This document shows, one piece after another, positions 7,202 through 42,417 of a stretch of DNA of 64,000 bases (positions are counted from its first letter, which is position 1; each line of letters starts with the position of its first letter). The stretch is taken from contig JAJKFJ010022139.1 in NCBI GenBank assembly GCA_027382625.1, positions 1 to 64,000 of the forward strand, read 5' to 3'. The notes under the pieces are model-generated. The model made no database searches. It saw only the letters and a list, made by a program, of their open reading frames with translations, and was not told where the DNA came from. Source of the DNA: Tetmemena sp. SeJ-2015. Lineage: Eukaryota; Ciliophora; Spirotrichea; Sporadotrichida; Oxytrichidae. A program made the translations under genes and the position numbers.

Positions 7202-7848
<647 letters not shown>

Positions 7849-7849
7849 T

Positions 7850-9707
7850 TCATTATAAGGAGAGTAGTTTTTATATTATCTCCTACTTAGCATTTTCAGC
7901 ACCAATTAAATTCTCTAGTTTGGCAGCCTCTAATCTGGCTTTCTCATTTTCAGCTTCTTGCATAGTTCTCTGTGCTCCTTGTGTTCTATCTTTGTAATAC
8001 TTGTAAAGAATCTTTCTGATGTCTGGAGTTAAGGATACTTCTTGCAAGTCACCTGGGTTTGGAACTTGTCCCAAAGTATAAGGTCCATACTCTGTCCTAA
8101 TGAGTCTATTAACTCTAAGACTGAACTTTCTCATCACTCTTCTGATTTCATTATTTTTGCCTGAGTGAAGTTTCATACTCAGCCAAGTGTTAGTAGACTG
8201 TCTTTTTTAAACCTCGCACTAAACAAAGAAAATCATATGACTTTAGAATTTCTTACGATGTAGGGTCCATAAAGCTGACCACCCATGACTACTCCCTTTC
8301 TGATCTTCATTAATTTATCCTCGTTGAACATTCTTCCAAATACTCTCACTTTATAACTCTACAGGTGGAATGAAAACATCTTAAGCGAATTCTTACTCTC
8401 TCGACTTAATGTAAAGGCAGTTCTAAGGCTCTGGCGAGCTCGCCATCATTTAGAAAAAATAAAAATTTGTAATGATGAGCAATCCTTCAGATAGATAATC
8501 TAATCTTCCCTATTTTATCATGAATAACTTTTGAAAAAGCTTACAACACTTATCACATGAGGGATAGTGAGACCTTTGTTATACAAATACTAAAAGACTG
8601 TAGGTCTTCCATGAGTGTCTGCATGAGTTGTAACCCATCCTTAAGGTTTATGGAACAGCCAAATTCTTGTGTTTTCTTTTACAGGTGTATATATTCCAGT
8701 CTTAGCTGATATTTATAGAAGATTTTGATTGTTAACTTGCATGTTATGATCAATTATTTTTCCATCAACTTTCACCATTCCTTGCTCTATTATATGAAAT
8801 ATTTATTTTGTTATTTAATTAGCTTTTCAGCTTATCTTCTGCTACAAACTCCCATTCTTGCTAGTCTTTTAGAAACACGCTCACTATCATTGAAATCATC
8901 TATCTTAGATACATTTATGAACTCACTCAACGGAGCCTCGTTTTTCTTATTTATCGTTTTTACTTTTTGTATTTATTTTTCAGCAGCGTGAGCTCTTACA
9001 AAGTCCTCATTAAACCTGTCGAAAGTCTATAATCTTCTTTCATGTTCAGCTAATTCTAATTTTCTAGCAACTGGAGCATTTAATTGTTTCATCTTCTTTC
9101 TTTCCTCATTTGTCATCTTTTTCTAGAATGTCTCTTTAGTTTCCCTGGCTTTCAGCTCCATTTATTTTGCTTACTTCTCCTCGTTTTCTCTCTCCCTTTT
9201 AATAATTGGGTTCTCTTGCTCAAAGTCTTTGGAGGTGAATTCCTTGAACATCTGTTCATTTTTGAGGTAATCTGGTGCTTTCTATCTCATTTTTATAGTC
9301 TCAGTGTTATCTTTTTCGTTTTGAATGGAGTATTTTGACTGCTTTGCATCAACTATCTCAAGCTTGCCCTTCTTTTCAACTTTAATTTCATGCTTTGAAA
9401 GCTTCTCTTTGACTTCTTATATCTTAAATTACTAGACCTTTTGATTGCTCTTGATAAGCATGTTGATATTCTTTGGATTATCGGATTTTACTTCTGCTAA
9501 GCGATCAGACCTCTAGTATTTTGAATTATCTCTAGTTTAAGACTTATTTTAACTGCTTTCAGTTGCTTAATAGCCTTATGATTCTTTTCTATTGGTGAGT
9601 TTATGTGCATGCCTGGCTGATCTTCCAAAAGCCTACGCCTGTCTATAAATCAACTCTCTTCCATTAGAGAGTCTTAGAAGCTAAGTTAGTGGTATTAATT
9701 TAATCAT
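7850..9707 (-). CDS. RsuA/RluB-family pseudouridine synthase, probably organellar
   Basis: Predicted to isomerise uridine to pseudouridine in rRNA. The N-terminus from the chosen ATG (MIKLIPLTQLLRLSNGREL) is basic, lacks acidic residues early on and resembles a mitochondrial targeting peptide. A long charged, Lys/Glu-rich extension follows, then an S4 RNA-binding motif (RVSKRLARMGVCSRRQAEK) and the catalytic region WLFHKPQGWVTT...GRLDYLSEGL with the catalytic Asp. The C-terminal motif is GKNNEIRRVMRK. Introns: about 35 nt before GRLDYLSEG, 38 nt before the segment ending STNTWLS, and one inside the NDGELARAL-GRMF part. A 17-nt pointer-flanked insert sits after LLIITN. A further AT-rich interruption near 8780-8810, inside the S4 motif, is not precisely resolved. 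Ends at TGA. The family and active site are clear; the compartment is inferred. Confidence 0.85.
8448..8468. other. Very short IES, pointer ATTT (plus strand)
   Basis: ATTT at 8448-8451 and 8465-8468 bounds a 17-nt unit with no GT..AG ends. Its removal joins LLIITN to NDGELARALEL in the pseudouridine synthase, where the family is continuous. Confidence 0.6.
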
Positions 9708-10562: not shown

Positions 10563-10735
10563 TATATTTGAATACTTTCGTTTGACTTAGAAGGAATCTA
10601 ATCGGATAAAGAGGTACGAGAGTGAGAAGAATTAATTCTATAGCCCATCTCTATACATTGAATACTATTTTGCGCATGGTTATAAGCACCTGGCCGAACA
10701 CCATAGCTGTCCTTCCGGAGCTCATAGTCCTTGTC

Positions 10736-11092
10736 TCAGTGTTCAGAATATTGCATGAGCATTTCTCCACAGCCGAGAGTCTCCCTGGTCTTACGCTGCT
10801 TCCTAATCTCAGTGAGATCCGAAGCTAGCTACAGTTTGCGGGGAGGTTATTCCAGTTCCAGCGAGTTGATGCCAGGGGAGCGTCTCACACCCACCCATTG
10901 GAGTGCGCCTCGAACGGCCAAGTCTAGGTCGCTCATTTGACCTTTCGAGCATATTGTTGCTAACTTCTCAATCGATTCCCACAACTTGGGCAGAGCAGAA
11001 AAGCACCTGTCTCCCCGCCTCAATCGGATGACCTTCATGTGCCAGATCGCCGGTCCAGTCACCCCCTCTGATGAAGTCATATGTCCTTGCAA
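10736..11092 (-). CDS. Hypothetical ORF in the GC-rich island (118 aa)
   Basis: A minus-strand frame from ATG (MQGHMTSSEGVTG) to TGA includes in-frame TAA and TAG read as Gln. It is basic and polar, without a recognised domain. Its position just upstream of and divergent from the transposase would suit an accessory transposon gene, but with one stop codon and GC-rich DNA a chance frame of this size is not rare. Confidence 0.28.
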
Positions 11093-11166
11093 AATCGCCT
11101 ACTGAGAAGTATCTAGTCGCGCGTAGCATGCGTACCAAGTTCTAACTGGTGAAGCAAGGGTGTTGA

Positions 11167-11821
11167 TTCACTCAGTCCGCTGAGCCCAGGCTCGCATATG
11201 CAGGAGGAAATACGTGGGACACAGCCTTGCGTGTACTAGGAAGATGTCGTCTAGGGAGCGAGAAGGCGTACATCGTCTACCTCGACGAAACGATATTCAA
11301 GCCGTACCACGCCACCATCAGGTCCTGGGCCAAGCCCTTACCAAAACTAAGTGCTACTCAAGGAGGGGGTTAAGCTCGACACCATGGCTGCTCTGGTCAT
11401 GATAAGCTCGCACGCAGGCTTGGAGGGCTTCGCCCTTCGCGAGATGTCGATCACCATAGAGATCCTCGCACGCGAGCTGCGGCTGCTGCGGCTGCGCCAT
11501 CCACGGGAAAGGCTATAGGTCTTCCTAGACAACCTCAGAGCCCATCACTCTCGCTCGGTCGCCGAGGCTTGCTATGAGTCAGGCATAGAGCTCATCTTCA
11601 ACGCTCCGTACTCCTCGTGCTTCAACCCCATCGAGGAGGTGTTTAGCAGAGTGAAAGGCCACTACAAGCGGGCACTCGCGCGAGAGGACTTCCGGGTGAG
11701 CCAGGCCTAGCACGTCGACATCATAGCTGGCGCTATTCGCTCGATAGAGCAGCAGGACTGCCAGCGCACCATAGCACGTGGCCTCAGGAGAATGGAAGAC
11801 AGAGTCAGAGAGTTGGAGTGA
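11167..11821 (+). pseudogene. Tc1/IS630-family DD34E transposase (one frameshift)
   Basis: Encodes the catalytic part of a DDE transposase. Seen: YIVYLDETIF with the first Asp, VFLDNLRAHH with the second Asp, and SSCFNPIEEVFSRVK with the Glu. There are 34 residues between the second Asp and the Glu, the DD34E spacing of Tc1/mariner-IS630 elements, the class that includes the TBE and Tec elements of ciliate germlines. Several in-frame TAG codons are read as Gln and the frame ends at TGA, so it is in host code. A single-base shift lies in a run of five G at 11365-11369, either decay or an assembly error. The N-terminal DNA-binding part is not evident upstream. Confidence 0.8.
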
Positions 11822-11870
11822 TTAAGATTAATTTTAAAGCAACTTAAGCTTAAGTACCCTATTTAAAACC

Positions 11871-12212
11871 TCAAGCCAGCATCCTCTTGGCGGGAGGGGA
11901 CCTCAGCAATCCCATCTCAACGTCAAGCGGCTTCAGCCCACCGATTGCGCTCCCGCCCATGAGGCTGTCTTCCCAGGCTCCCTCGTAGGCACAGCTGATC
12001 TCAAAACGCTTGCGCTCCTTCTACTGACGCTTCCCAGTAGAGGTCACCTTCAACAATGCCAGGGCTCTGCCCTTCTTTTCTAAAGCATAATCTGAGGGGC
12101 CTGGAATTCTTACTCGAGTAGTAGGGTTGCGCCTCAAGGCTTCCGGAGGTACATTCTGGGCTAAACCTCGATTGTTTTGTCTAGCTTCTCCTCCTCGAGT
12201 CTGCCCAGACAT
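11871..12212 (-). CDS. Hypothetical ORF in the GC-rich island (113 aa)
   Basis: The frame runs ATG to TGA, opening MSGQTRGGEARQNNRGLAQ, with a basic RVRIPGPSDYALEKKGRAL middle and one in-frame TAG. It is convergent with the transposase, 50 bases from its stop, like the tail-to-tail gene order of ciliate TBE transposons. No domain is recognised; it may be part of a transposon accessory protein. Confidence 0.35.
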
Positions 12213-12302
12213 TCTGAGTCATGTTTGACCTGTGCGTGAACGAGCTTTCTATAGAAGTCCCCCCGAGAGTGTCCGAGGTTTGGATAAGCTGTAGCTGTCC
12301 GC

Positions 12303-12701
12303 TCAGGCAGCTCGCCCCATTGTCTCGTTAGTAGTTGACGGTAGCTGGTAGCAGCTCCTGACCCCCGCCCCACTCATCTCGAAGATGCTCGCCCGGAGAA
12401 GCTCAGAGGTATGTTGGAACGTTGTACTGAGGTATGAGCTCGGCACGTCCTCATCAGGAGGCGTCGTCTACCCCAAACTCATGAGAGGATCATCCCTAGA
12501 AGCGAGGCTTGGTCCGCTTCTTGGACGGGAGGTGATTGCCTAGCTGTAGCAGGTAAGCTAGTATTTGAATGCATTTACTTGGAACTTGAGGTAGGGTAGA
12601 GGTCCCCCTTTGGAGCGAACTTCGATTCCAGCCTGCTTGGCGCGACGATTGTGAGTCTGTGTTGATGATCGTGTTGAGCCCTCTGGTTTGAAGTTCATCA
12701 T
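12303..12701 (-). CDS. Hypothetical ORF in the GC-rich island (132 aa)
   Basis: A Ser/Thr-rich polar frame from a double ATG (MMNFKPEGSTRSSTQ) to TGA contains in-frame TAG codons. It lies in the same frame as the next ORF upstream (12711-13094), separated by one TGA, so the two may have been one protein. No domain recognised. Confidence 0.3.
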
Positions 12702-12710
12702 GACTGTAGT

Positions 12711-13094
12711 TCAAAGTTCGTGTCGTTCTGGTCCTCCTTTCAAAATAAGTTAAAGTTTTAATTAATGAGGTACAAAGATTCTACATTGAAGCTTGTGGTA
12801 CCTTAAATAGGTCGCGCTCTTCTCTATTAATAGCTTGGCGACCCATATCTTGCTGTGATTATAAACTTGTGTCTCCCTAAGCTGTGCATAGCCTGGTAAT
12901 GATTGGGCTCCTGCTGGGTAGGTTGCTTTCTCTGTCTGCAGCGGGCTCGAGCCTCTTGCATGGCTTGAGACTCTATAGAAGGAATTAGGTATGGTTTTGG
13001 ATGTTTTTTTTTGAGGAAAGGTATCTTTATTGGACATTTCAGTGAGGTATTGTTGGATTTTATCCATGAGCGAAAATGGTATATCTATGGTCAA
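12711..13094 (-). CDS. Hypothetical ORF in the GC-rich island (127 aa)
   Basis: A frame from ATG (MTIDIPFSLMDKIQQYL) to TGA includes in-frame TAA codons. The amphipathic N-terminus is followed by a basic region. No family is recognised. It lies directly upstream of and in frame with the 12303-12701 ORF. Confidence 0.32.
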
Positions 13095-13248
13095 CTGCTT
13101 ACCTCGAGGGAAAGCTAAGGAGCGCTATATAGCCATGCTGTGGCTGAATTGTGGATGGTGTCTCATCCAGGCTATGGTTCTCAACGCTGTGGGTGACTAA
13201 CCGTTTTAAGTGCCTGATTAGTTTTCAATTAGGAATTAATTTTACTAT

Positions 13249-13530
13249 TGCATCGACTGCGACCTGTGCGTGCAGGTGTGCCCCACGGGCATCGACATCC
13301 GCCAGGGCCTGCAGTACGAATGCATCGGCTGCGGCCAGTGCGTGGATGCCTGCAACACCGTGATGGAGAAGATGAATTACCCGAAGGGTCTCATCCGCTA
13401 CGACACGGTCAACGGCATGGCCGGCCACTGGAGCCGCGCGCAGCTGTGGCGCCGCGTGCTGCGGCCGCGCGTGCTCATCTATGCCTCGGTGCTCATGCTG
13501 CTGGTGGTGGGCATGCTGGTGAGCCTGGTG
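13249..13530 (+). CDS. ccoG: Embedded fragment of bacterial CcoG (RdxA/FixG) ferredoxin-type protein
   Basis: This 94-codon stretch of very GC-rich DNA with bacterial codon use encodes two 4Fe-4S cluster motifs (CIDCDLCVQVCP and CIGCGQCVDAC), then a KGLIRYDT segment and the start of a membrane span. This is the central part of the cytochrome cbb3 oxidase assembly protein CcoG of proteobacteria. Both gene ends are missing and the borders fall abruptly into ciliate-type sequence. No IES or intron can supply the rest. The best explanation is a chimeric assembly or amplification join with bacterial contaminant DNA; a real transferred fragment is less likely. It cannot be functional as it stands. 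Confidence 0.9.
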
Positions 13531-14105
13531 CCATGCGCCGCGCCATATAGGGCTGCTAACCACACAATTTAAAAATCAGCAGGGCACTCGTATTTAGTTT
13601 ACGAGACCAGCTCTGCAGCCCAGACTGGAGCGAGCGGCTCTGCCCTTCCTTACCTCTCCGCTGCCCTCACTACCGGCGCACCTGGCTATGCCATAGCAAG
13701 TGCGAGAGTGGGCAGTCTTGCGCCTCTAGCGTTACAGCCCTCTAGATGCCTGAAAACAGTCTCTTAAGCTTCCGACGCTCCTCTCCACTAGGCTCTCGCT
13801 CAACACGCCCTTCGCATCGCAGCAGAGGCGCCGCTTATACCCTGCGCGCTGATCACGGCACTTCGAGCTGCCCTGGTCCCACTAAGCGGCACATTCCCTA
13901 TAGTCTGGTGCTGACTACGCTAGCTGGGCGTTATGTCAGGCTCCGTTGCAGGAGCCCGGAGCCCTTCACAACTGCGAGCGATGCCAGTACACTGCCTATA
14001 TCTTAAAGCTGAGCCTCTTAGTCCAGGAACTTATGCGAATTGGGTGTATCGCGCGGAGCTCCTTTGATTGAGCCATGTGAAGTCCCATTCACAATTCGGA
14101 TGGAG

Positions 14106-14840
14106 TCAAACGATCTTTAGAGCACGATCTTGTGAGGGTCTAGGCAGCCTTCTACTTGGTAGGAGCCCCAGAAGCAAGTGGAGACGAGGCACCACTCGCA
14201 CTTTCAGCAAGCAGGGTCGCAAGCAGGATGCAAGATGAACTTGATGCGCTCTGTCAAGTACTTCAAAGGTCACCACGCTACCCTCAGGCAAGGGTAGGGC
14301 GTGCAACTGCTTCCACGATGGTTGTTGTTATTGTTTCAGGCAGTCTACATCTGGCGGTGAGGGGATACTATCATCTACCAGAGAGGTTGACTACAGCTTT
14401 GCCAATCTTTCACCACAGGGAACCCCGTCCAGGCCTGGCTATGCTCGTCGACAGGTACTTGGTTTATGATGCGCGCAGTAGTCGGACAGGTTGCACCAAG
14501 CATGGAGGTCACACACCGCGTGTCTCAGCCTTCCTACTTTTCGCATCATAGGGAAGAACCCCGCCCGAGGTCTTTCCTGTGCAACTTTCCATGCATCAAG
14601 GCGCTAAGGAAAGCCTGGACAGTGGTCTGCCCGCGCCAGCCCTTGGATAGACACCGGCGGGAGGCAGAGGTTTGCTTGGCGCCATAGCCTTCTTCTTGCG
14701 ACATCATACGTCCATGGCCTCATCGTCTGCAGCGGCTTCCTCAAAGACACACTCCGTCCGTCACCCACACATAGTGGCTCCGGTTCACACCGCCCTGAGG
14801 CTGCAGTACATAGCCTTCGGGCTTACCACTAAGAAATCAT
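14106..14840 (-). CDS. Possible Cys/His-rich transposon protein (244 aa)
   Basis: A minus-strand frame of 245 codons with several in-frame TAG/TAA codons ends at TGA. A central cluster (VCDLHAWCNLSDYCAHH, followed by a further Cys) could bind metal, and the C-terminal third is Leu/Pro/Arg-rich. The opposite strand is also open over nearly the same interval, so the coding strand is not certain. If real, a zinc-finger accessory protein of the GC-rich transposon is the natural guess; TBE-type elements are known to carry one. Confidence 0.33.
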
Positions 14841-15010
14841 GAGGTGGTGCCTAGACGATTCTCATCCATTTCCCAAAGACGAAGCTTGAGGCCTAGACAA
14901 TTCTGCAAAGAAGCTCAAGTAAGTGTATTAAAATAGACATTGACATATTTATTTTGTAGATTAAATTTTATCTCTATTTTTCTTCATGATTCCAATATTA
15001 AATATAATCA

Positions 15011-16573
15011 ATGGTTGAGACATATAAGCACGTTCAAGAGGACAAAATTATACTTGGCTTCCTTTAAAAGCCCCAAAACAGTTTGATCACCACTGCACCT
15101 TACACTCCCTCTAAAGTTGGAGGCAAACCAGTAAGAATTTTTTCTATCTCTAAATTTTAAGGCTTGGATTGTTCCAAAATCAGGAGTGCCAGAGGAGAGA
15201 TGCCAATACTGTGGATACTATAAGCAATTCCTGCTCTAACTCTACGCAAACTCGACAGATCCCTCAGTTTAGGACTATCACAGAACTCTTTACGTTTTCA
15301 CCTGTCTATCTCCTCAGTGCATAGGCACTCAAAGAGCAGTCTCGATCCACCGTGCAATCATTAAAGGCAAGAATACCTTGGGAGTTGAGTTCGCAGATGA
15401 AGATCTCTTTAATGAAGTGCAAGACTCTTATCAGCAGCAATTAATAGACAGAGGACTAATCAATCTAGAAGATGAAGTAAGAGAAGCTGAGGAAGATGCC
15501 AAAATGCAGGAAGGCAAAGAGTAGAAAGATATCAAGATCACTTTCAAAGAGTACATGATCCTTAATGAGCCAGAGGATCCTTAGACCACCAAGTTCTATA
15601 TTAAAGAGTCTGCTAAAATCAAGACCAAATAGCCAACACAGAGAAAGTAAGATGATGCAGAAGATGACGAAGATGGAGAAGATATTGATGATGAGGATTA
15701 TCTTGAGGATGTCTTTTATTGAATTTTTAAACTTTAAATTCATAATGAGTCTTCTTGAAGAATCAAGCTAACACCAACAAAGATAAGAGATAGCTTGAGA
15801 AGCTAGTAAAGAAAACTCTGAAGCAGCAAGAAGATGACGAAAAAGAGTTAGCTGATTTAGAGGGAGACGATAAAGCTAAGATTGATTAAGTTGAGATGGA
15901 GGAATTAGAAAAATTCATTAAGAAGAACCACAACAACTATCAGAGCATAGATAACCATTATAAACTGTGCGAAGTTGTGTGCAAAGCAGATCCAGATCAA
16001 GTATTGAGATACGTTAACAATCGTGAAGAGGGAAATGTTGAGCCCCTCTGGGTTTCACAAAAGAATATTATCGATCCCTCTAAAGTTTTGCCTTGCGAGA
16101 AGTGCGGACAAGCTAGAACTTTTGAGTTCTAAGTTATGCCTTAAATTTTCGATTACATTTAATAGCTGTTGCTTGTCGACTGGAGCACAATTGTGTTCTA
16201 TACCTGTCAAAACCCTAAGTGCTTGCCCGATTATTAAAATGGAGAATTCCTCATCAAAGAGTTCAGTTACATCTAGTTCTCTGATGATTTCGAGAAGGTT
16301 TAGTATGGAGATGATAAACAAATTGAATAAATTAAGTTTTAAATTGAGAAATAGAAGCAAAGAAAGAGAGAGCAAGAGCAAAAGGAGCAATAAGAAATGC
16401 AATAATTGCAAACAGAAGAAGTTAAAGTCGCTCAATAAGCTCCAAAAACCGAAGATAAAAAGACAAAGAAGGACAAAAAGTCTAAAAATGCATAGTAAAA
16501 CAATATTAGAGAAGAAGTGAATTCAGAGGTTTAAAACTAGCTCTCTGATCTAATGAAAGACTTAAAGTTCTGA
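15011..16573 (+). CDS. PDCD2: PDCD2/PDCD2L-like zinc-binding protein
   Basis: PDCD2-family proteins act in ribosome biogenesis as chaperones for a small-subunit protein. Seen: an N-terminal Cys-containing domain (RCQYCGYYKQFLLQLYANS, then FTCLSPQC), a long acidic linker, and the C-terminal PDCD2 domain with CEKCGQARTFEFQVMPQ, LLVDWSTIVFYTC and NPKC. A charged Lys/Gln-rich tail ends at TGA. A 31-nt GT..AG intron lies at 15131-15161. A 38-nt IES with pointer GTCTT (15711-15715/15749-15753) interrupts the acidic linker; its removal gives EDYLEDVFLKNQANTNK. Start chosen at the first ATG after AT-rich DNA. The whole gene lies inside the interval that splits STIMATE. Confidence 0.85.
15711..15753. 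other. IES in PDCD2-like gene, pointer GTCTT
   Basis: The repeat GTCTT at 15711-15715 and 15749-15753 flanks AT-rich DNA containing an in-frame TGA. Excising 38 nt restores the frame. Confidence 0.75.
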
Positions 16574-19267: not shown

Positions 19268-23082
<3,815 letters not shown>

Positions 23083-26718: not shown

Positions 26719-28055
26719 ATGGAATAATAAATTGAGCAAGAGGCTCTTCAATAAGTAGATGAGCAATTAGATTATGGAACTTCTTAGGCAATTAAATTTT
26801 ACGACTAACTTTCAGTGACTTCTAAAAAGTTCTTTGAGTACTTCCATTCTTAGAATCTCTGCTTCAGATGCATCTTCATGCTATTTAAGGAAACTTGTTT
26901 ACATGTGTATCGACTTGAAAGCTTTGAGAGATTTCGCACTCACGTAGGCCTGCCAGAAAATAAACTGAGCCCGAGAGACCCTTAAATTAGATGTAGACTT
27001 TGTATGGGAGTGATTCAATTCTGCGACACTCCTTATAATATTGACTAAGTGATAGAGAGAGTTAACAAACAAGAGTTTGAGTATGAGGATTTCAAAATTA
27101 CCTTCAGTATTTCGATTGTCTCATACATAAGTAAGATGATTATACTAATGGAGGCTGAGCAATTAATAGGAGAGATGTTTATGTTTTCTTCTAAGGACTT
27201 AAGTAAAGTAAGACACAAGTATTTTTAACAATTTTAGAATTAATTGGACTTCAAAGAGATCTACAAATGGATAATGTCTCCTAAGATAGCGAGAAGACTA
27301 GAGGTCCATGCTAATCTAGAAGGTAGATTCCTGGTCAATGTGAACTTTTGTAATCGTGATAAAACTGCTATTCATGATCAAGACAGCGAGGTTTCAATAA
27401 TAGCTGAGCTACAAGAAGACTTGGGAACTCTAGGTATTTCCAAAATGAGGAATGCCTCCCAGATGCAATCTAAATGGAAGAACAACAAGAAGCAGCAAGA
27501 AAAAGATGAGCTCAAGGCTGCTAAGACTTAAATGGGAGCTGAATAGATAATTAGTCTACTTACTAAAGCACCTTTGTCATTAATTAAAGAGTTGAGGTTG
27601 GTAAAGACTCAGAGAATAGAGAAAATAGATTTCATAAACATGATGCAAGTTGAGTGCTCACAGGATAGTATTTTACTCTATGGGAGATACATCAAGCACT
27701 CAAGAGAGGTTAGTTAAACACCCTGGCTAATTGGAGATAGAGAAATTGTAAGCTTTGAATTATGATGTGTTGAGATAAATTTAGAAAAATGTGCAGGATG
27801 AAATTTCAAAAGGCTTGCTAGAGACTTTTGGCTCTAAGCAAGTGTATTTGCATGCAGCAGGGAGAGAGGACATAGATGTGAGAATGCTGGGCATAGGAAG
27901 ACCTTTTATTATGGAATTTATGAACCCTAAGAATGTGAGATCTTCCTAGGATGCAATTTAGGATATAGCCAATAAGATATCTTCATTATTTATTTATATC
28001 CAGCTCCCTAGTCTATTGCCATGAATTCAAAATCGTTGATAAGAGGTTCTTTGAT
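26719..28055 (+). CDS. PUS10: tRNA pseudouridine synthase PUS10, 5' segment of a split gene
   Basis: PUS10 makes pseudouridine 54/55 in tRNA. This segment carries the N-terminal zinc-binding region (CFRC and CRLC Cys pairs), a middle region with a Lys/Gln-rich insert, the conserved SILLYGRYIKHSREVSQTPW block, and the catalytic core HAAGREDIDVRMLG with the catalytic Asp, followed by GRPFIMEFMNP. A 19-nt IES with pointer ATATC (27977/27996) is removed to give ANKISSSLVYCHEFKIVDKR. A one-base shift near 27724-27733 breaks the frame (assembly error or decay). The segment ends at the 11-bp pointer GGTTCTTTGAT (28045-28055), shared with 37428-37438, where the rest of the gene resumes. Confidence 0.9.
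27977..28000. other. Very short IES in PUS10, pointer ATATC
   Basis: ATATC at 27977-27981 and 27996-28000. Removing 19 nt restores the PUS10 frame across a position with no splice signals. Confidence 0.65.
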
Positions 28056-28082
28056 TTCTATAAATTGAATAGCTTATAGTGA

Positions 28083-28295
28083 ATTTAAATTAAGTAGGAG
28101 ATTTAATTACCTCACTAAAAGAAACAAAGAAAACTTAGTAGTCCTTCTAAAAAGAGAGATAGCTAGGCTGAAGAAGACGATGAAGAAAACTTAGATTTAT
28201 TGGAGGATTCAGATAGCAACTTCTCGACAGTAAAACAGGGCCAGCGTTTTGGATTCGGTAATCAAATTCTAAACGAAAACGCTTCCTAAAAATGA
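28083..28295 (+). CDS. Orphan coding segment (acidic C-terminus of an unknown protein)
   Basis: Directly after the PUS10 pointer, a frame without a start codon reads QLPHQKKQRKLSSPSKKR, then an acidic EEDDEENLDLLEDSDS block, then QRFGFGNQILNEN, ending at TGA. The composition is that of a real protein tail and it is not PUS10. It is most simply the 3' MDS of another gene whose remainder lies elsewhere in the germline. Unassigned. Confidence 0.4.
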
Positions 28296-28538
28296 CTTAA
28301 TTAATTAAAACTTTCTCATTAGCATTAAAGCAAGGATATAATCTGTGCCATATGCAAATCTGAGAAATTAAAATTCGAGTTCAGTAATAGTAAGTGAGTG
28401 CGTTTGAGCGTGGAATAGGAATCTGAGTTGATAACTTGGTGTTGATTAAAAACTTAGGCTTCTCCAATAAATAGTTAAATTATAATTAAGCGCTGTTTAT
28501 ATTGCTTAGAGAGTCAATAAAGATTATAAAATACGAAA

Positions 28539-31500
28539 ATGAAAAATACTTCTAACTCTAAGACAAGATCAACCTAAAAATCTTCTGACTCCAAAGAAGA
28601 ATCCAAGCATAAGAAATCTGAGACTTTTGATTTTGCTATATTTTTATAAATCCTTTTTTTTTATAATGACTATTTTATTTTTTCAAATTCGTGAAGGAAT
28701 TATTTTTTCTTCTTTATATTTTTACAAGTATAAATCTCTTTGATTTCTCATAGTACCAAAAACAGAAAGCATAAGGGGAGGGCGAGTGACCCTCTTAAGT
28801 TTTGAAAATAGCCAAAGGCCAAAATAAAACTTCTAAAATAAAGAAGATAAAGTTGCTGAAATCCGTGCTTGAAAGTGATTTGTAAAATCGAGAAAATAGC
28901 CAATTAAATTAAGATCCCATCAAACTGGATTAAGAATAATATTCCACTTCAAAATTTAGAAATCATTTTTAATTACATTTCTTTTTAATTTGATGCGCCT
29001 ACTCCTTTAAATTTAGAAAAAGATGGTGATTAATAGCGACTTAAGATTGTTTATCCTTATTAAATACAACATAACAACAGATACAAAAGTGGGAGCAGTC
29101 ATTAATTAGAGGACGAAAGTTGAGAAGAGAACTTTCAGAATCCTCGAACCGCTGAAAAGATTACACCAAATAACAGGAAACAGTTTAATTATGGGTTGAA
29201 TATAAAAACTCAAGGGGTTAGTCCCAGATCTTCAAATTTTGTAAACATCTAAGAAAATACTGATAGATAGCCAAACTAAAGTTTGATTTCAGTTTCAATA
29301 TTTTTTAACAGCAACGTAGACATGGTGGCTGATGGCGGGCTTTAGCAGCCTTTTATTTATATCAATAATTCAGTCAGCTAAAATATGAGCAACGACTAAT
29401 TCATTTATCTTCTATAATACAAAATTATAATTTAATTGTCTTTCAGCCAGTTCACGAAAGCCAGAAGTTTTTATCTGCGAGACAAGATTCGCTTGAAGAT
29501 CTCAAATCTGTTTAATAAATATATTCGGCGTTTTCAATAAGATATAATTTTTATAAACTAGATGATTTTTTCAGCTTGAAGTTGTTTATTTTTAAAATTT
29601 GATTATCAGGAGTTTAGAGAGGTTGAAATTTTATGATTGCTAATTTAAACTGTCTGTTTTAGAACTCTGGCTTCATTTTATGAAAATTTCTCTTTGTAGA
29701 AAAATAAACAGTCTTAACTTGCAAATATATCCTTCCTTATGAAAATAATTTTTATCTTCTTCAAATGACTTTTATAAACTGTTTAGGACGAAATTCAGAA
29801 GCAAATCAAGGATATGGAAGTTTAACTTTTGCAGAAGATTGACAAATTGAGGTAAATAAAAAACAAAGAACATAATAACTTGGAGACTATCTCCTACGGC
29901 GCTTACTCCTTCACTCCAAATACAGTACCTTTACAGATTTAACCCTCAACCAGAAACACAAAGGATGAGAGCCTGCAAGTAAAAATGGCTTCGACTTAGA
30001 GAGGAGACAATACTACCAAAACTTTAAATAAAGAGCAGCATTCGCTACTGGGATCAGACAATTCACCCTTCGGTTTCAAGCCTGCGCATCTTAATCTACC
30101 TTTTGAACAGCAACCCTACTTTCAGCTAGCATCTACCCCACAGAGTAATATCACAAGAAATTCCTCAATAAAAAATGTTCTAATTTCTTTATTCATTAAG
30201 GCCCTCAGATAAATCATTAGAGAGGACAACCCCAATGTCTCAAAAGAATCACAATCAAGAGCTTTCATTCTAGAATCAGGCTAGTGGGTTGCCAATAAAG
30301 TAGCAAAATTTTCAAGGTATCGTTAAATAGGCAACTAGAAAAATCCATAAAGGGTCGCTCCTAAAAACTGTGGACAGTGACTAATTCAGCATATCAAATA
30401 CGACAACAACTCCTCAAAGCTAAAATCAGTAAACTTTCACTCAAGCCTCGAAGGAGAGCTCTTAAGTTTATCAACTTACTTAGCAAGTAATTCAACTGAG
30501 TTAAATGGTTGTAGATCTACAAAAGTAGAATCAAATCAAAGAGGAAATCAATAGAAACACATAAGCATAAGTTCAATTGGGAAACCTGCATTCTTAGCGC
30601 ACTCGACCTAGAAATTAGGGTCAGGATCTAGTTGGAAGAACTTCAAGTCTTGGATAAAGTGAGAGCTTAACAAAGAATAGTTCGTAAATAGTAACTCGTA
30701 AGAATACTAATAACGAAGCTGGTGCTCGAAATCAAAGTGACTATATCCAATTTTAGTTTCCTTTTCTTCAAAGTAATGTGCTGATATCTAGGCTTGAAAA
30801 TCGAATAAAGGAGTGCGAGGATGATAGGAAATCACTAGAACAGACTTCTGCTTAAGCCAATCAGGGCTTAGATAGTAAATAACACTTATTTCAAAATAGT
30901 GTGCTTTAAAATTGACATAAGAGTCAATCTAATCTCAATACCTACCAAAACTCGGAAGATGAAGGCTAGTTCATTTTGAAGGCCAAGCTTATTTCTGATA
31001 GTGAGAGTGAGCTCCTCCTTCCAAAGTCTCAGAAATCTTCGAACTTTGACGTCTCACTTCACACAACGAAGCATATTGATTTGAATAAGAGCAACCTGAT
31101 TTTGGATTCAGGCACTTATGCTCACAAGATTTAAAACAGGCTCACGCAAGGCCAAGAGTATAATGGAATGGTTTTTGGGGAATTGCTGTACAAATAGTAC
31201 GAGCCCTCTTTCTTTGACATAAGAGAGAAGGAAAAGGACCCCCAGTATTAATTTGAAAAGGAAAAGCGAGATAGAATGAAGAGCTATTGGAAGAAAGTGA
31301 ACAACTCTTTCCTTCCTCCAATTGACGAAAGAAAGAAGACTGAGTTAAAGGAGAGAATTTCCATGCTCAAAGCTCGTGCGGAGGGCAAACGAGTTAAGTC
31401 TCGCACGAGGTAGAATTCAGAGGAGGGATTCAAGATGTTCCCTAGCTCCTCTGTGATTATGAGTGAATCTCCTTCTCAACTGTAGAGTTACAATAATTTC

Positions 31501-34500
31501 AATTCCTCTTTGCAATTTGACCCTTAGCAGATTCTATCGCTCAACTAAGATCATCATCATTCAAGCAGTGCTGCTTCAATTCTTAGACTCCGCCATAAAA
31601 AGTCTAACTCCTAGTAACTTTTGACTGAAGCATTTCAAAATTAGAAACAATTGAAGAGCAAGGCTCATAAAGTTAAACTTATCAAAATGCCCCAATAAAT
31701 CTAAGAGGGTATCTCTTAGACTTATTAGAGTTTCAATTAATCCCAGCAACTATCTCAAGTTTCTCTTATTGCAGAATTAAAAGATGAATAAATGGGATTT
31801 AATGAGGATTGATTTTAAGTTGTGAATAAGACCTTTGACTTGAATAAGATCAAAGTTATAAAAAAGAATAGAGTTAAATTATCAACACTATAAGACTACT
31901 AATAAGAATATTGATTACTATCTAATCATTCAAATCAACTCCAGCTTATTTTCTCATCGATCTGATGAAATCTTAGTTTAATGAAAGGAATTCAAAAGAT
32001 GAAGATAGTTCTTGAATTCACACAAATTATTTATTGACCTATATTAATTTGTAATATAGATCCAAGACGCATCAAAAATATAATGGTAGAGAGAAATCAA
32101 AGTAGAGCTGAAGCAGATTCGGTTTTGATAAGTCTGCAACTCTCAGAATCCAATTCTCAGCCTTCTAAGCAAGGCCTATTACAGTAACTTGGTCTAAACT
32201 AAAAACAGTAAAGTGGCACTGACTATAAGGTGGATGCATAAATAAAGCACAAGAGCCAAATTTACAATTTTTTGGAACTTCTTGGAGAAGGAGCCTTCTG
32301 CAAAGTGTATAAGGCTATTTATTTGCCAACTCAGGAGGAACTCGCTGTCAAAGTAAGAAAATCTATCCCTTAATTATCATTAATTGCATTAATTGTATTC
32401 ATTCATTCAATATATTGATTTGTGTGTTATCATGGTAAAGGTAATAAAAAGAGAAAGAGTGAGTAAATCAGACTACGAGAGGATGATAAGTGAGTCTGAG
32501 CTGCTCCAGTAATTAGATCATCCCAATATCGTAAAGTACAAGCATGTAAGTTGAGTGTAATCAATTCTAAGATTTGAATGATGTCACCACTGCCATGGAA
32601 GTAGCAATTATTTGATAGAATCTAGGATCTAAGTGTTATTTATAGATCCATCAAATTAATGGGAAAATATTCCTGGGTATGGAACTCATAGCAGACGGCA
32701 GATTAACTGACCTCATCAGAGAGAAGCAATAAGAAAATGCGAAGTTCACTGACTTCGAAGCTAGTTCCCTCATGAGGGGAATCCTCCAAGCTGTTTCTTA
32801 TATGCACGATAAAAACATAGTCCACAGAGATTTAAAACCTGGTAACTTATTCTATAATTAAGATTCATTCTTAAAATAGAAAATATTTTGATCGGGGACA
32901 AGCAAGATTTAAGCTCCTGCAAGGTTATTGACTTCGGGCTAAGTGCCAAACACCAAATTAGCAAAGGAGCAATGAATATTATGTGTTTATTATTTATAAT
33001 GGACTTACATTGTGGTACGCTGATTTACATGGCCCCTGAGGTAGCATTCAATTAAGAGTATACTAAGTGCGTAGACATATGGTCTTGCGGAATAATATTG
33101 ATTGGGTATTTTTTATTGTCCATGAAATAATTCAAATTTTAGACTGAGATTCTATACTTCTTTAAATCGGAAACAGATCTCTTCTTCTCCAAATTAAATT
33201 TTAGCTCTATCTCCTATTTCCTAATTTATTTAATTTCATCTTCACTCTCATTAAGTATCTGTATATAATGTATGAAATTCTAACTGGAGGGAAACACCCC
33301 CTATATGAAAGTGAAGAGGACACTATAGAAACTTATAAAAAGAAACTGCAGGGCGTTTCTTAAATTGAAGGGCCCTCAGAGCATTTCTCTTGGCTTGCTA
33401 AATCCCTATTCGAGAGGCTCACTAAGCTTTCATCTCACCAGAGATATTCAGCCAAGGAGGCTTTGCTCCACCCTTGGATTACTAGGAACAACCAAGGCAA
33501 TATCCCAGAAAGATTAGCTGATCAGATTAACAAACTTGAGTACGAGTAGATATTAGCAAAATATAATTAAAATCAAATAATCATTAGCAAATTTATGATA
33601 ATTCTAAAGAAGTTAAAATTTATTTCCTTAAGTTTTTCAATTAACTGATATTTATTTAATTGAATTATACTGAGAAAGAAAATGGTGCTTGTATACTTTA
33701 TAGGCATGATCAATGACTCAAACAAAAAAGAACTGGAAAAAGATCCAAGAGACAAATCTAAAGAGCGACGTGATTACATCTCCACCCTAAACCGAGTGTC
33801 TTTGAAGATAGATAAGTGGCACCATTAAATGATCTCACTCAAGCAGGGAACCTTCTAGGACGATAATGAATTTGTGACCTTAGGAAACAGTCCCAGCAGA
33901 TTCCATTCGAGTGATGAGGAAACTGAAGATATGTCAGACACTCAGCCCAAAGAACACACAAAGCAAAAGGGCCTCAAAAGGAAAATGATGGGGCTCGCTC
34001 TCGGAAATCTAAATAACTTCACCCTCACCAATTAAACTGACTTAAATAGCGTCAGCCAGACAATGGCTAACACCTCACCTGAGAAACCCTATTCAGTATC
34101 GAAACAAGCTGGCTAGAAATTCACCTACTTCAAAAATAATAATCTCTCGGTGCCTAAGAAGGATTAGCTCACAGTTCGAAAGGGGAGAGATCTCTCCAAC
34201 CCTAAAGATAAAGACAATTAGAAGAAATTTTCAGTAAGCCCTGCCAATAAAAATGTGTCTTCGAATAAGCAACTTCTTCTAGATAACTAGTCCAATAAAA
34301 ACTGAATAGAAGAGGAAATGGAGACTGACATATCTCCTATTATAAAAAATAATTGCGAAGATTTAAAATTACAAAAAGATTTTTCTAATTAGCTCAACTA
34401 AGCCAGGAAGCTCTCTTTTCTAAAGCAAAAGCAGCCGAGTCTTTTGTCACAGGAGGCATACGTCTCAGAGCATCCTCCATCGAATCAAGCGTTTAAATTT

Positions 34501-36760
34501 TCCGAGAAACCTTAAATTTGTAAATGTTGTTGTCAAAAAAATTTATATATATTTTGTCTATAAATTGGAATGATTAGGGGGCATATTTAGAAAAGGAAAA
34601 GTGAATCTAACACTCGGAAAGAGTCATAGGCAGAGACAACCAGCTCAGTGAATTTATCTGATCTCCATTAGAAATTATCGTCTATGCAACCAGAGTTGAA
34701 GAGAGTGTTTGTGTCCTAGAATATCATCTCCTTCTAAAACTAGATCAATTCTACTTCTAAAAAGAGGAAACAAAGCTCAAATTATATTTGAGAATTTTAC
34801 CATTATCAGATAAAAATGAAGAAGTAAATCTAAGAGGAAATTATTATAAATCAAATTCTTTGATAAGCAACATGCTCGATAGCTAATAGCAACTTATAAT
34901 TATCTTTAACTTCTTAAATAGCACTTATCTGAGGGAAAAAAAAGATATATAATCTTAGAAACTCACAATTATCTCGGTATATTTTCCTTTAGATTGCTAT
35001 TGTTCTCATTCAGAGATTATCTTAAAGAAAAATACTTACTTCAAATAAGAAAAAGTCTTAACATCTATTATTTACGATTAGTTTGGTTATCAAGTAAATT
35101 CTCTTTTATATTTCGAGAGTTAAAAGAGTAACATCATAGAAAGGCGGCAAATTTTATTGATTATTTATAAAACTTTGCTGGTATAAAATGATAGTTTTGA
35201 AAAGTAGAGTGATCTAAACTAATCTCAACTTTAAGATACCAGCTAGAGTTTTCTAAGTAATAAACGACAGATAGGAAAGATCAAGTCCCAAGAGCTAAAC
35301 ATAAGTCTCAATAATCAACTAAGCGGCAATTACAATCATATTAAAATTAATTCTATTTGATGTCAATGATATAGAATGAATATTATTTTAAATCAACAAC
35401 AACTCCCTCCTGAAATAGTTTAAAAACTGGGAAACAAATTCCTTCTGAAAAAGAATCAAGAAAATAGCAGACCAGCCAGAGGAATACGCAGTCATTATTC
35501 TGTAGATAAAAATAGTCAGTTTAATATCACTAAGAACACTTAGAACTTTAATAGTCATCACTAATAATAACAGCAGAAAAATCATTTTTCCACTCTCGAT
35601 GAAAGTGATTTGAATGACAGTTTCTAGGTAGCACTAAATATGAATACAAACCAGCAAGCTGGAAGTTATAAGAATGAAAAAGCTTTGCAGGAATTTGGTT
35701 AAAGAAGCGACAAAGTTATTCTCCCTTCTATAAGTGGATTTTTCTAAAGGCAGTAAACATCCTCTTATCAGCAAAACCAAATTGACAGCTTCAGTATGAA
35801 CCCTAAGAACAACAGTTAGAACATTCCAGCTTACGCTTAAGCGCCAAGTGCAGAGAGATCTAACTATTCTAAAGGTATCAACAAGTAAAGAGAGTTCAAG
35901 ATAGGTGGCAATAAATCTCTATCTAAACCAAGTAACTCTTTCCATGTTGAAGCTCCAAATTTGGCAAAGCAGCCCTTCCAAGAAACTGTAAAAATATAAG
36001 AATTACTCGCATCGCACTTACTAAAAGACTTTAGAAGAGAGCTTTAGGCATAATAAGAGCTGGAGGATGTGCTGAATATCTCAGGCATGAAAAATTATCA
36101 ATCAGTTGGTTAGCCAAGTAGAAACATCAATTCTTAAGCAGCTCAGAGTTTCCAATGCAATAACAATTCCTTTGTAGCGCAGAGGGAAGTCTAGAAGAAG
36201 TAAGGAACTTAATTGCATGGAAACATCAGCTTCAGATAGAGTATGCAAATTTAGGGTAGCAATCAAAGGAGAGAGTCTTAGATCACGAGTGCGTTTTAGT
36301 TATCAAGAAATTTTCACGCAAATACAGGTGTGAGACAATCTATGATAAGCTAGCTTGAGATTTTAAATTTAACATTTAATATATTCAGGATACACTCTTA
36401 TACCAGAAACCTAAAATCCCTTAGAATGAAGGTCTCTCCACTAACTTCTCAGTTGGAATAATTGGAGAAGTTAAACCTCTAATCATAGATGAGAAAAGCA
36501 ATCTTACTTGCTAATTAAATTAAATATTGTATTTTCTTACGAAGAAGATAACATTAAACTAACGACTTCAAAATAATACTCAGTAAGAGAGCAAAGAGGA
36601 TTAAAAATTATAAGCAAAGCCTTTTTCACCTCCCTCTAACTTTTCTTCAAATATGAATCAATCCTAGATAAACCACATCATTGCTTAGATCAAGAGAACT
36701 GCATTTATATTTATACTCTATAAAATATTTTAAGCTTTGGGAGGCATTCTTAAGAATTGA
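28539..36760 (+). CDS. Large Ser/Thr protein kinase with long Gln/Ser-rich flanks
   Basis: From MKNTSNSKTRSTQKSS the gene runs over 8.2 kb. A long Gln/Ser/Asn-rich N-terminal region is followed by a kinase domain at about 32.26-33.49 kb with [49 protein letters not shown] (Glu codon split by a 38-nt intron), VIDFGLSAKH, CGTLIYMAPEV and VDIWSCGIIL. Then comes an extended Gln/Asn/Ser-rich C-terminal region. Introns: about 89 nt after ELAVK, about 100 nt after KYKH, 38 nt in DLKPE/N. Ends at TGA. Many frame jumps in the flanks coincide with AT-rich blocks and are not all resolved. An in-frame TGA sits at 29121-29123 between EDES and EENFQNPR. Kinase subfamily uncertain (CAMK/ULK-like). It lies wholly inside the PUS10-splitting interval. 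Confidence 0.75.
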
Positions 36761-37070
36761 TAATGTAAAGTGAGTCAAGAGAGAGAGTCTCAAGCAATGT
36801 ATCCAATAAATATATGAATCTTCTAAAAGTATGAGTGAGAGCTAATATTTTAAATTAATATTTTATAATTATAATCATGGCATTTTTGGATAAGCTTCAG
36901 TGGATTATTTAAGTTTAAAAGTTAAATAAGTTGCATTCAAGCCTCTCGATGACAAGTTACTTTCGCTAACTTATTGCTGAGAGATTCTGAATAAGGCTTT
37001 CTATTGCTGCTGATCTTAAATTAAAAAAAAAGATTGTCAAAAATTTAACATCAATTTATTGTATTTATAA

Positions 37071-37345
37071 TCATTCGAAGTCAGCTCTCTTGTGGAGATT
37101 TTCGAGTAAGGCCAAATGAACAGGTCTGTCTGGCTTGGAGAAAGCATTTTTGCACTCATCGAAGTAGTAGTTGTACGACTTCTGGTATCTCTCAGGTGTG
37201 ATACCTGCCTACTTTCTCCAGAGTCTGTCATTCTCGCAGTAGGAGAATTTGAAGTAAGAGTTGGGGCCTATAAAAGTTATAGTGAGTGTGAATTTAGAAA
37301 AATACCAGTGATGCCAAACACCTTGTAGGTTGCTTCTTCACTCAT
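37071..37345 (-). CDS. Small unknown protein (78 aa)
   Basis: Two exons joined over a 38-nt GT..AG intron (37268-37305): MSEEATYKVFGITG, then PNSYFKFSYCENDRLWRKQ, TPERYQKSYNYYFDECKNAF and RPVHLALLENLHKRADFE, ending at TGA. It is rich in aromatic and charged residues with two Cys; the size and composition resemble small accessory subunits of mitochondrial complexes, but I do not recognise the family. It is antisense to, and less than 100 bases from, the PUS10 3' segment. Confidence 0.72.
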
Positions 37346-37427
37346 TGATAACTAAATTTATTATAATTACTTATTATAAACATTGAGATATGCTACTCAT
37401 TCGAGAAATAAACACACTCATACAAAT

Positions 37428-37912
37428 GGTTCTTTGATGATCTGAAGGAGATTGAAAATTCAAAGGCCAAAGCTTACTGTTGCGTGGTTTGGGTGAGCAA
37501 GAAAATTACTAAGAAGGATTTGAGTCGCTTGAACTCACACTAGGATATACAAATCAAACAGACAACTCCTGTTAGAGTGCTTCATAGAAGGTCACTCATG
37601 GTCAGAGACAAAATGATTTACAGAGTTCACGCTGAGTAAAATCATTTCAAATATTTTGAAATGAAATATTTTTTACATGAGGGATACATAAACCAACACT
37701 ACTTTGTTCTCAAAGTTTTGGCATCGGCTGGAACCTACATCAAAGAATTTGTTCATGGTGATTTGGGTAGAACTGTCCCAAGTATTGGCTCATTGCTAGA
37801 AAGTGAAGCAGATATTCTCTAATTAGATGTATTACAAGTATATGACTCAGTCCACGATGTAGATTTACAGAACTAAGAATGGCACAATATCCAATTCATA
37901 GATAGGGATTGA
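37428..37912 (+). CDS. PUS10: tRNA pseudouridine synthase PUS10, 3' segment of a split gene
   Basis: From the pointer GGTTCTTTGAT the frame reads FFDDLKEIENSKAKAY, CCVVWVSKKI, TPVRVLHRRSLMVRDK and ASAGTYIKEFVHGDLGRT followed by SIGSLLESEADILQLDV, the C-terminal blocks of PUS10, ending at TGA. A short AT-rich insert after HAEQNHF may be an in-frame IES. Upstream of the pointer the frame does not resemble PUS10, so this is the partner of the 26719-28055 segment. Confidence 0.9.
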
Positions 37913-40660: not shown

Positions 40661-40864
40661 CTCTAATTTAATATATATCACTTTTTTTAAGAACTCTATC
40701 TTGATTAGGTTTTGCAAATCCTCGATCATGTAATCATATTTACCCTATAATCATATACCTAAACAAGATAAAGGTAACTTTTCTAATCAAGATATGAAAA
40801 GTCAAATTAAACCTCATATTAAACGTTTTTATAGATGAAATATTTTACAATAGGTTAAGCTTAC

Positions 40865-42417
40865 AGATGTGAAAGAACAATGAAGTTGCACGATAAATGG
40901 ATGATCAAGCATGGTGAGTATTTTTCTCTCGGCAATAATTTACTGAACCTTGTTAGTATCAACTATGTGCTTTTTATTTATGACTTTCATAGCGTAGAGC
41001 TTCCCCGTCACTTTCTTCCTCACTAAATTCGTAGTTATCTTAATCCCATCTACACTTACCCATCAGTACTTACGAGAATCCTCCAGTGCCCAATACTTTA
41101 ATCATCTCATAGTCTTTCAAGGAAGGAGGATAACTTAAATATATAATCTCATTTTCAGATAGAGGTTAGATCTTCTCGATCTAACTCTTCTCTGTTCAGC
41201 CTAGAACTCCTCATCTGTGATAAAATTTATTTTGAGTTCTTGATCTGCAAATATCTATAACCGATTTTAATAAGATTATGGCGAGAGTGAATATGTAATC
41301 TTCGAATTTATAGCTTACGATCTCAATGGATTAGCCATCCTATTTGACATCTTCCAATTTTTTAATCTTGAATGTTAGGAAATTGATGAGTGGCTCTTCC
41401 CTCTATGTGAGTAGATAGTCTATGCATTCTTATTCATCGTCTGTGGTGGATAAACTAATGGGGTGTAGCTTTCTCATAAAAGGCAGAGATGGTTGCAGAG
41501 CTCTAAACTAATCAAGAACTTTATCTTATAGCCAACCAGAGGTGCGATTCGTTTAAGACTCTCCTTCGTTTAATAAAAATATAATTTTCATCAATAAGTA
41601 CCACATTCATAGTCCTATAAAGCCTTAGAAAGTATTCTAACTTACTCCATCACCGAGTAAGATAAAAATATAACATACAAAAATATATTCCTAAGAGTAG
41701 TAAACCTTAATGCAAATCCTTTAGCTTTTTCTTTGAGACCGGAAGAAAGCGCTGATTATGCTGTTCTGCGTTACTCCAGAAAACAAAGCGATCTTCTACT
41801 GCAAACTACGAGCTGAGAAAAAGCCTTAATCTCTATAGTCTTCTTAATCTATTTATGCTTTCTCATTTTTATTTTTCTCTTGCTTATCTTTATCCAACTC
41901 AAATTTTAAGCTAGTTATGGGTTATTTAGGTAGTCTCTCCTAAGATAAACTATTAATGTGATTATTTATTCATTAAAAGAAAAGATTGAGCATTCTTGAG
42001 AGTGTTTATATTTGGCGTAATACTGACTTTCTGATTCTTTTTTAAATTGGTTTTTTACTTTTGAGGTTTACTGATTCTCCCATCTACAATTGCTTATTAT
42101 TTGAATTAGTTACCTTCATGCACCCCCTCATCAGGTTGTATGAGTTTGGGCTGTTTCTTATCTTTTTAGTGACTTTTCAGTAGTTGATCCTACAGTTATA
42201 TATTTCATAAAATGTTTACCTTGGTAATGTTGGTTGCCTGCAATATGGAAGAAGTTTGAGGGGTAAAGAAACTCTGATCCTCAATTTTATTTGGAGAGGG
42301 CGTTAGAGAGAGAGGTCAGGAGGGTGAGAGTTGAGGTATCTATTGGAGTGGCACGAATCTGTGAGTGAGGTAGTTTTGATAAGGCCTTGATATAATGTCG
42401 TTTTCATCTATGTGAAT
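40865..42417 (-). CDS. AGC-family Ser/Thr protein kinase, N-terminal region and N-lobe only
   Basis: A polar N-terminal region (about 350 codons with several introns or IESs; start uncertain, an ATG lies at 42417) leads into a kinase N-lobe: MIKVLGTGGFSQVLM, VRKKVTGKLYAMKVINKK (catalytic Lys), AERKILTMLDHPFIVQLH, ending CSFTS at a GTAAG intron start. A 37-nt intron splits the glycine-rich loop region. No catalytic loop, DFG or APE sequence follows before the repeat element at 40.65 kb. The C-lobe at 7202-7848 on the same strand begins just about where this one stops and is of the same AGC class, so they may be parts of one gene 33 kb apart. A shared pointer could not be fixed. Confidence 0.8.

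Follow-up and report, generated by a model that had tools for sequence, protein, structure and literature searches.

In the window, as we call the whole stretch of 64,000 nucleotides analysed here, the gene for PUS10 is split into two parts on the plus strand (26719 to 28055 and 37428 to 37912), and a protein kinase locus lies between them. We consider it very probable that the window comes from the micronucleus (germline) of a hypotrich ciliate and that PUS10 is cut by a very large, gene-carrying IES; the features of the sequence described below lend good support to the nesting of a kinase locus, in the DNA of a ciliate germline, within an interval putatively deleted from PUS10. A gene for an AGC kinase is likely split by another very large, gene-carrying IES, and this IES encloses PUS10. 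The two splits thus appear, from their positions in the sequence, to be layers of one nest, which would have three layers if the AGC kinase layer is correct. Several traits of hypotrichs were found: TAA and TAG encode glutamine (62 times vs 68 times for CAA and CAG among 1,657 codons in seven window segments), C4A4 repeats are present in the assembly from which the window was taken, and Stylonychia and Halteria are among the three best PUS10 relatives listed in a protein search. The C4A4 repeats, which are telomere-like, include one long array at C2828:3805-4156, and among the contigs that begin with the repeat at base 1 are C298, C586, and C672; contigs of this kind perhaps represent germline telomeres or somatic chromosomes within the assembly.

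The 5' part of PUS10 extends from M1 to KRFFD and contains a 37-nt GT-AG intron (27748-27784) and a 19-bp IES with the pointer ATATC (27977-27995), while the 3' part, which matches Pus10_C from profile position 114 to 231, is completed by removal of a 48-bp IES with the pointer TA (37637-37684). The preliminary description had reported the same repeat at both borders of the interval, and we confirmed that the window contains the 11-mer GGTTCTTTGAT exactly twice, as plus-strand matches at 28045-28055 and 37428-37438. These two pointer copies leave 9,372 bp between them (28056 to 37427), which we assign to the gene-bearing IES without a strand. In dinucleotide shuffles of the window, the mean number of copies of this 11-mer was 0.03, and 0 of 100 shuffles contained two. 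Moreover, GGTTCTTTGAT is the sole 11-mer common to the 300 bp around either border (27901-28200 and 37301-37600). Repeats of 11 bp or longer at a distance of 5 to 15 kb are frequent, with 449 maximal pairs in the window, and we therefore regard the PUS10 repeat as meaningful because it falls precisely where the PUS10 homology stops and resumes. Among 400,000 random draws of pairs of 24-bp stretches compared in a fixed register, a shared run of at least 11 bp occurred with a frequency of ~1e-5.

Upon removal of one copy of GGTTCTTTGAT together with the 9,372 bp, the intron, and the two small IESs, the joined PUS10 sequence translates with genetic code 6 into 568 amino acids with a single stop codon at 37910-37912 and none internally. 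The fusion at the pointer reads ...HEFKIVDKRFFDDLKEIENSKAKAYCC..., so that KRFFD continues into DLKE. The restoration of PUS10 at KRFFDDLKE, as originally proposed, is borne out in that the fused protein aligns without gaps through the junction with five relatives picked from the match list, provided that the intron and the small IESs are also removed; the frame into KRFFDDLKE is open only once the 19-bp IES and the 37-nt intron are taken out. Consistently, the separate pieces gave Pfam Pus10_C scores of 61.2 bits (5' frame, profile positions 22-95) and 142 bits (3' piece, 114-231), while the fused protein scored 259.1 bits over positions 2-231 of 232. In a protein search, 251 proteins matched PUS10, and among the best 120 of these 251, which were listed, the closest relatives were a EukProt protein (68% identity), which based on its protein number we take to be from Oxytricha trifallax, and proteins of Stylonychia lemnae (57%) and Halteria grandinella (51%). 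The Pfam analysis, the search for relatives, and the alignment were done with a 569-residue model with an extra glycine at the 48-bp IES; the corrected protein has 568 residues. Using a pattern search allowing up to three mismatches, we detected no fused PUS10 junction in the source assembly (146 Mb, 5,213 contigs), and a 203-bp piece of the 3' part (37430-37632) had one match in it, i.e., the window itself.

The interval within PUS10 had been described as holding an 8-kb protein kinase gene on the same strand and a small antisense gene. We identified a complete kinase domain on the plus strand (32083 to 33564, with both ends chosen by us), which in the germline DNA is spread over three plus-strand frames. 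Removal of three GT-AG introns (32353-32440, 88 nt; 32546-32645, 100 nt; 32842-32879, 38 nt) and two IESs (32984-33010, 27 bp, pointer TGT; 33099-33259, 161 bp, pointer TG), all of which we placed where homology and frame demand, results in an unbroken stretch of 356 amino acids that matches Pfam Pkinase over positions 1-263 of 263 with 216.7 bits, while split fragments matched before the removal. The nested kinase gene thus itself looks organised as germline DNA and, judged by its restored frame, appears intact over its recognisable part. This part spans ~1.5 kb, and the proposed extent of 8 kb for a single gene was not confirmed. The open frames upstream (29851 to 31812, plus strand) may be a separate gene or the N-terminus of the kinase, and the Q/N/S-rich open frames downstream (33670 to 36653, plus strand) its C-terminus or another gene; the regions 29851-31812, 33670-34305, and 35370-36653, submitted separately, matched no Pfam family, and in the three plus-strand frames of 27001-37001 only Pus10 and protein kinase families were found. 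Residues 940-2080 of one frame that was read through the interval and holds only part of the kinase had no match among proteins searched. Within the source assembly, 30916-31809 had one weak second match, and 35370-36350 matched only itself.

For the antisense gene, we predict a frame of 78 amino acids on the minus strand (37071 to 37345) with one 38-nt GT-AG intron (37268-37305). It had no Pfam family and no convincing PDB match, and Pfam detected no family on the minus strand of the interval, for which one whole frame and all three frames of 37071-37366 were scanned. We regard this frame as a plausible small gene for which the Pfam and PDB searches gave no known relative, and the earlier claim stands as a prediction. 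The search for kinases took in all six frames of the whole window. The Pfam scan extended over the window apart from 16-27 kb on the minus strand, all but one of the whole minus-strand frames in the 9.4-kb interval, and some of 37-40 kb.

The entire PUS10 coding region (26719-37912) lies within the gap of the AGC kinase. On the minus strand, a kinase at 7.3-7.85 kb lacks the N-lobe, and an orphan N-lobe, likewise on the minus strand, is present at 41.0-40.8 kb, which before intron removal scored 25.4 bits, i.e., under the Pfam cut-off. We assigned the N-lobe part to 40761 to 41195, with introns at 41059-41023 and 40864-40783, and the C-lobe part to 7205 to 7840; the former probably extends further upstream, and the latter probably continues downstream. 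Without its two introns, the N part reads ...LHCSFTSKSYLYLV and then leaves the kinase homology, and in the C part the homology resumes directly after an in-frame stop codon. At these borders, the 10-bp candidate pointer TATCTTGTTT is found at 40770-40761 and 7840-7831, i.e., 32,930 bp from pointer to pointer; apart from these two copies, the 10-mer occurs once, on the plus strand. The fused junction reads TSKSYLYLVLDL. An initial junction model, HCSF-TS-TFLYL, was dropped since it was one residue short compared to SGK1; a second intron was then recognised, as was the 10-bp repeat. In Pfam Pkinase, the N part alone matches positions 1-77 (61.3 bits) and the C part alone 73-262 (190.6 bits), while the fused kinase matches 1-262 of 263 with 259.4 bits. 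The uninterrupted paralog L017 from the same assembly is 51% identical over 281 columns and aligns without a gap at the junction. Order, orientation, repeats, restored frames, and restored domains can thus be read from the germline DNA for both layers, with the rejoined products being conceptual translations. A second, independent case had been said to make nesting a regional property of the window; if the split AGC kinase was the case meant, it encloses PUS10 and so is not independent, the two appearing to be layers of one nest, and it lends no support to the idea of a regional property.

The outer gene-bearing IES (7841 to 40760, without a strand) holds, in addition to PUS10 and its nest, a PDCD2-like gene with the PDCD2 C-terminal domain at 16001-16276 (plus strand), a calcium-dependent protein kinase with EF hands at 21038-22884 (plus strand), a DnaJ gene, and a transposon. 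The latter corresponds to a GC-rich element at 10600-14900, in which the GC content is mostly 0.5-0.6, with ~0.39 near 12.8 kb, compared to ~0.33 in the rest of the window. It contains a DDE_3 transposase-like match at ~11357-11671, and 12000-14500 has at least 59 matching pieces in the source assembly, its own copy included (74 candidates, 40 of which were scored). By sequence, we classify it as a multi-copy, diverged transposon. At 13243-13404, the element has a bacterial-looking Fer4_18 4Fe-4S match, and in several of the element's other copies, the sequence on either side of ~13250-13523 aligns and that in between does not. This stretch looks foreign and appears to have been replaced in this copy, by either foreign DNA or an assembly artefact. 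A pseudouridine-synthase-like frame at 7850-8879 (minus strand), with S4 and PseudoU_synth_2 matches under the Pfam cut-offs, has its stop codon ~10 bp before the outer kinase pointer copy; the somatic ends of this locus and the AGC kinase might overlap.

Other candidates were set aside. A kinase-like match at 60318-60476 (E ~0.005) was dropped since we read its frame, without a test, as membrane-channel sequence; the hydrophobic frames at 59705-60700 (plus strand) resemble, on our reading, a TRP or polycystin-type channel, and Pfam returned no channel family for them. A segmentation of the window by codon usage called just 8,978 bp as coding and was considered too conservative. Scanning for direct repeats of at least 9 bp whose fusion lengthens an open frame, we obtained 270 candidates on the plus strand and 281 on the minus strand; because such candidates are this numerous in the window, repeats and open frames without homology prove nothing.

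We considered four other explanations of these data. If the 9.4-kb interval were a spliceosomal intron of PUS10 with a nested gene, as in animals, then the GT present at one cut position and the normal short intron of PUS10 would be in its favour, but none of the 12 possible cut placements within the repeat gives GT...AG, the 11-bp direct repeat at the borders would be left unexplained, and the six introns placed in the three genes are 37-100 nt in length; we find this explanation scarcely credible. It is very improbable, too, that an assembly error joined unrelated pieces. The evidence comes from one copy in one assembly, which moreover includes the foreign-looking stretch at ~13.25-13.52 kb; against an error, the window is without any N, the halves of PUS10 follow each other correctly along a single strand with an exact repeat in common, and the enclosing kinase has the same pattern. 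We give hardly any weight to the idea that PUS10, the AGC kinase, or both are broken germline pseudogenes with a working gene elsewhere: the interruption does destroy the frame in the germline copy, but fused PUS10 has an open frame of 568 codons in which conserved residues are present, its 3' piece was matched once in the source assembly, and that assembly had no full-length match with more than 54% identity to the fused AGC kinase among the matches listed.

It is also unlikely, albeit less so, that the N-lobe at 41 kb and the C-lobe at 7.8 kb derive from two different AGC kinase genes, in which case PUS10 would be nested alone and the nest would have one layer fewer. Kinases are numerous in this genome, with at least 163 matches in the source assembly. 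(Within this assembly, C1866 and C3720 have kinase matches with identical coordinates and scores, at 3616-4251 and 6077-6505, which suggests that they are duplicate contigs.) Part of the 10-bp repeat TATCTTGTTT codes for a conserved Tyr-Leu-Val, for which we estimate a probability of identical codons by chance of ~0.02. If the stop codon at 7852-7850 is read through, the Pkinase match of the C part starts at profile position 29 rather than at 73; we take this weak extension into the neighbouring frame as spurious. In a protein search in which the 7,989 candidates sharing most words with the fused kinase were scored, none of the best 120 was named as a ciliate protein, and these were mostly animal S6-kinase-like proteins, so that this search is no test of orthology. 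Against two separate genes, the halves complement each other (profile positions 1-77 and 73-262), are correctly ordered along a single strand, and have the repeat at both homology borders, and their spacing agrees with that in L017.

Given a nest of two gene-bearing IESs, development of the somatic nucleus would bring together the germline pieces of PUS10 at the 11-bp pointer GGTTCTTTGAT, of which one copy would stay, and those of the AGC kinase at the 10-bp pointer TATCTTGTTT. Somatic chromosomes of their own would arise from the kinase and the small gene inside PUS10 as well as from PUS10 inside the AGC kinase. Excision at these points, its order, and separate somatic chromosomes as the products are what we infer from this arrangement. 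At 3,232 bp in Stylonychia lemnae and 1,761 bp in Halteria, the contigs with PUS10 leave no room for an additional 8-kb kinase gene, which fits with separate chromosomes. The pointers are 10-11 bp long at the two gene-bearing IESs vs 2-5 bp (TA, TG, TGT, and ATATC) at the four small IESs of PUS10 and the inner kinase, which we positioned according to the homology. According to a published idea, longer pointers serve longer distances (PMC9797194), and the lengths observed here fit with this idea as stated there, in a comparison of two with four pointers that is without testing power. Tentatively, and as a possibility that we consider doubtful, the 32.9-kb and 9.4-kb intervals could be precursors rather than waste, with the outer interval being excised either whole or in a fixed sequence from the inside outwards, no fewer than five other genes thereby surviving as somatic chromosomes, and pointer length reflecting the distance bridged even in unscrambled genes.

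An apparent three-layer nest of unscrambled genes in a germline assembly bears on questions presented as open by Braun et al. 2018 (PMC5940158), i.e., the origin of such architectures and a possible relation of nesting to the rearrangement pathway. Orthologous germline loci could show whether nests grow one insertion at a time. Our observations also carry a warning for annotation, as genes whose parts lie tens of kilobases from each other can escape plain translation of germline contigs from hypotrichs.

In hypotrichs, germline segments are described as being joined at pointers, of which one copy is retained (PMC5940158). The arrangement in the window resembles the Russian doll loci described for Oxytricha trifallax, in which loci belonging to one nanochromosome lie within an IES of another, pointer repeats are present at the segment ends, and the nests are layered (PMC5940158). 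In that species, Braun et al. 2018 reported that 1,301 of 15,811 MAC contigs enclose others, that 125 of the 15,811 have an index (IDI) of 2, and that 1,847 contigs are embedded only (PMC5940158). On this index, as defined there, PUS10 would have an IDI of 1 and the AGC kinase an IDI of 2. Unlike most hosts with these values in O. trifallax, 62.3% of which at IDI 1 and 74.4% at IDI 2 are reported to be scrambled (PMC5940158), PUS10 and the AGC kinase appear unscrambled in the parts seen. The species also differs from that of the earlier study, and the O. trifallax maps are described as resting on macronuclear chromosomes (PMC5940158), while the somatic products are inferred here.

Feng et al. 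2022 (PMC9797194) described Russian doll loci conserved between Oxytricha and Tetmemena. As in these, long pointers appear to bridge the nests; there, other unscrambled loci are reported to be inserted between the layers, and the two loci named have maps other than the one presented here. The arrangement in the window would also match the definition of B-type alternative fragmentation in spirotrichs given by Lyu et al. 2024 (PMC10901763), in which an MDS of one chromosome is nested by an IES of another; their calls are described as based on assemblies of somatic as well as germline DNA from four named species, ours on germline sequence. Our literature searches, which were worded without the name PUS10, found no paper titled on this case. 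The PUS10 locus is a new example of the already published Russian doll nesting.
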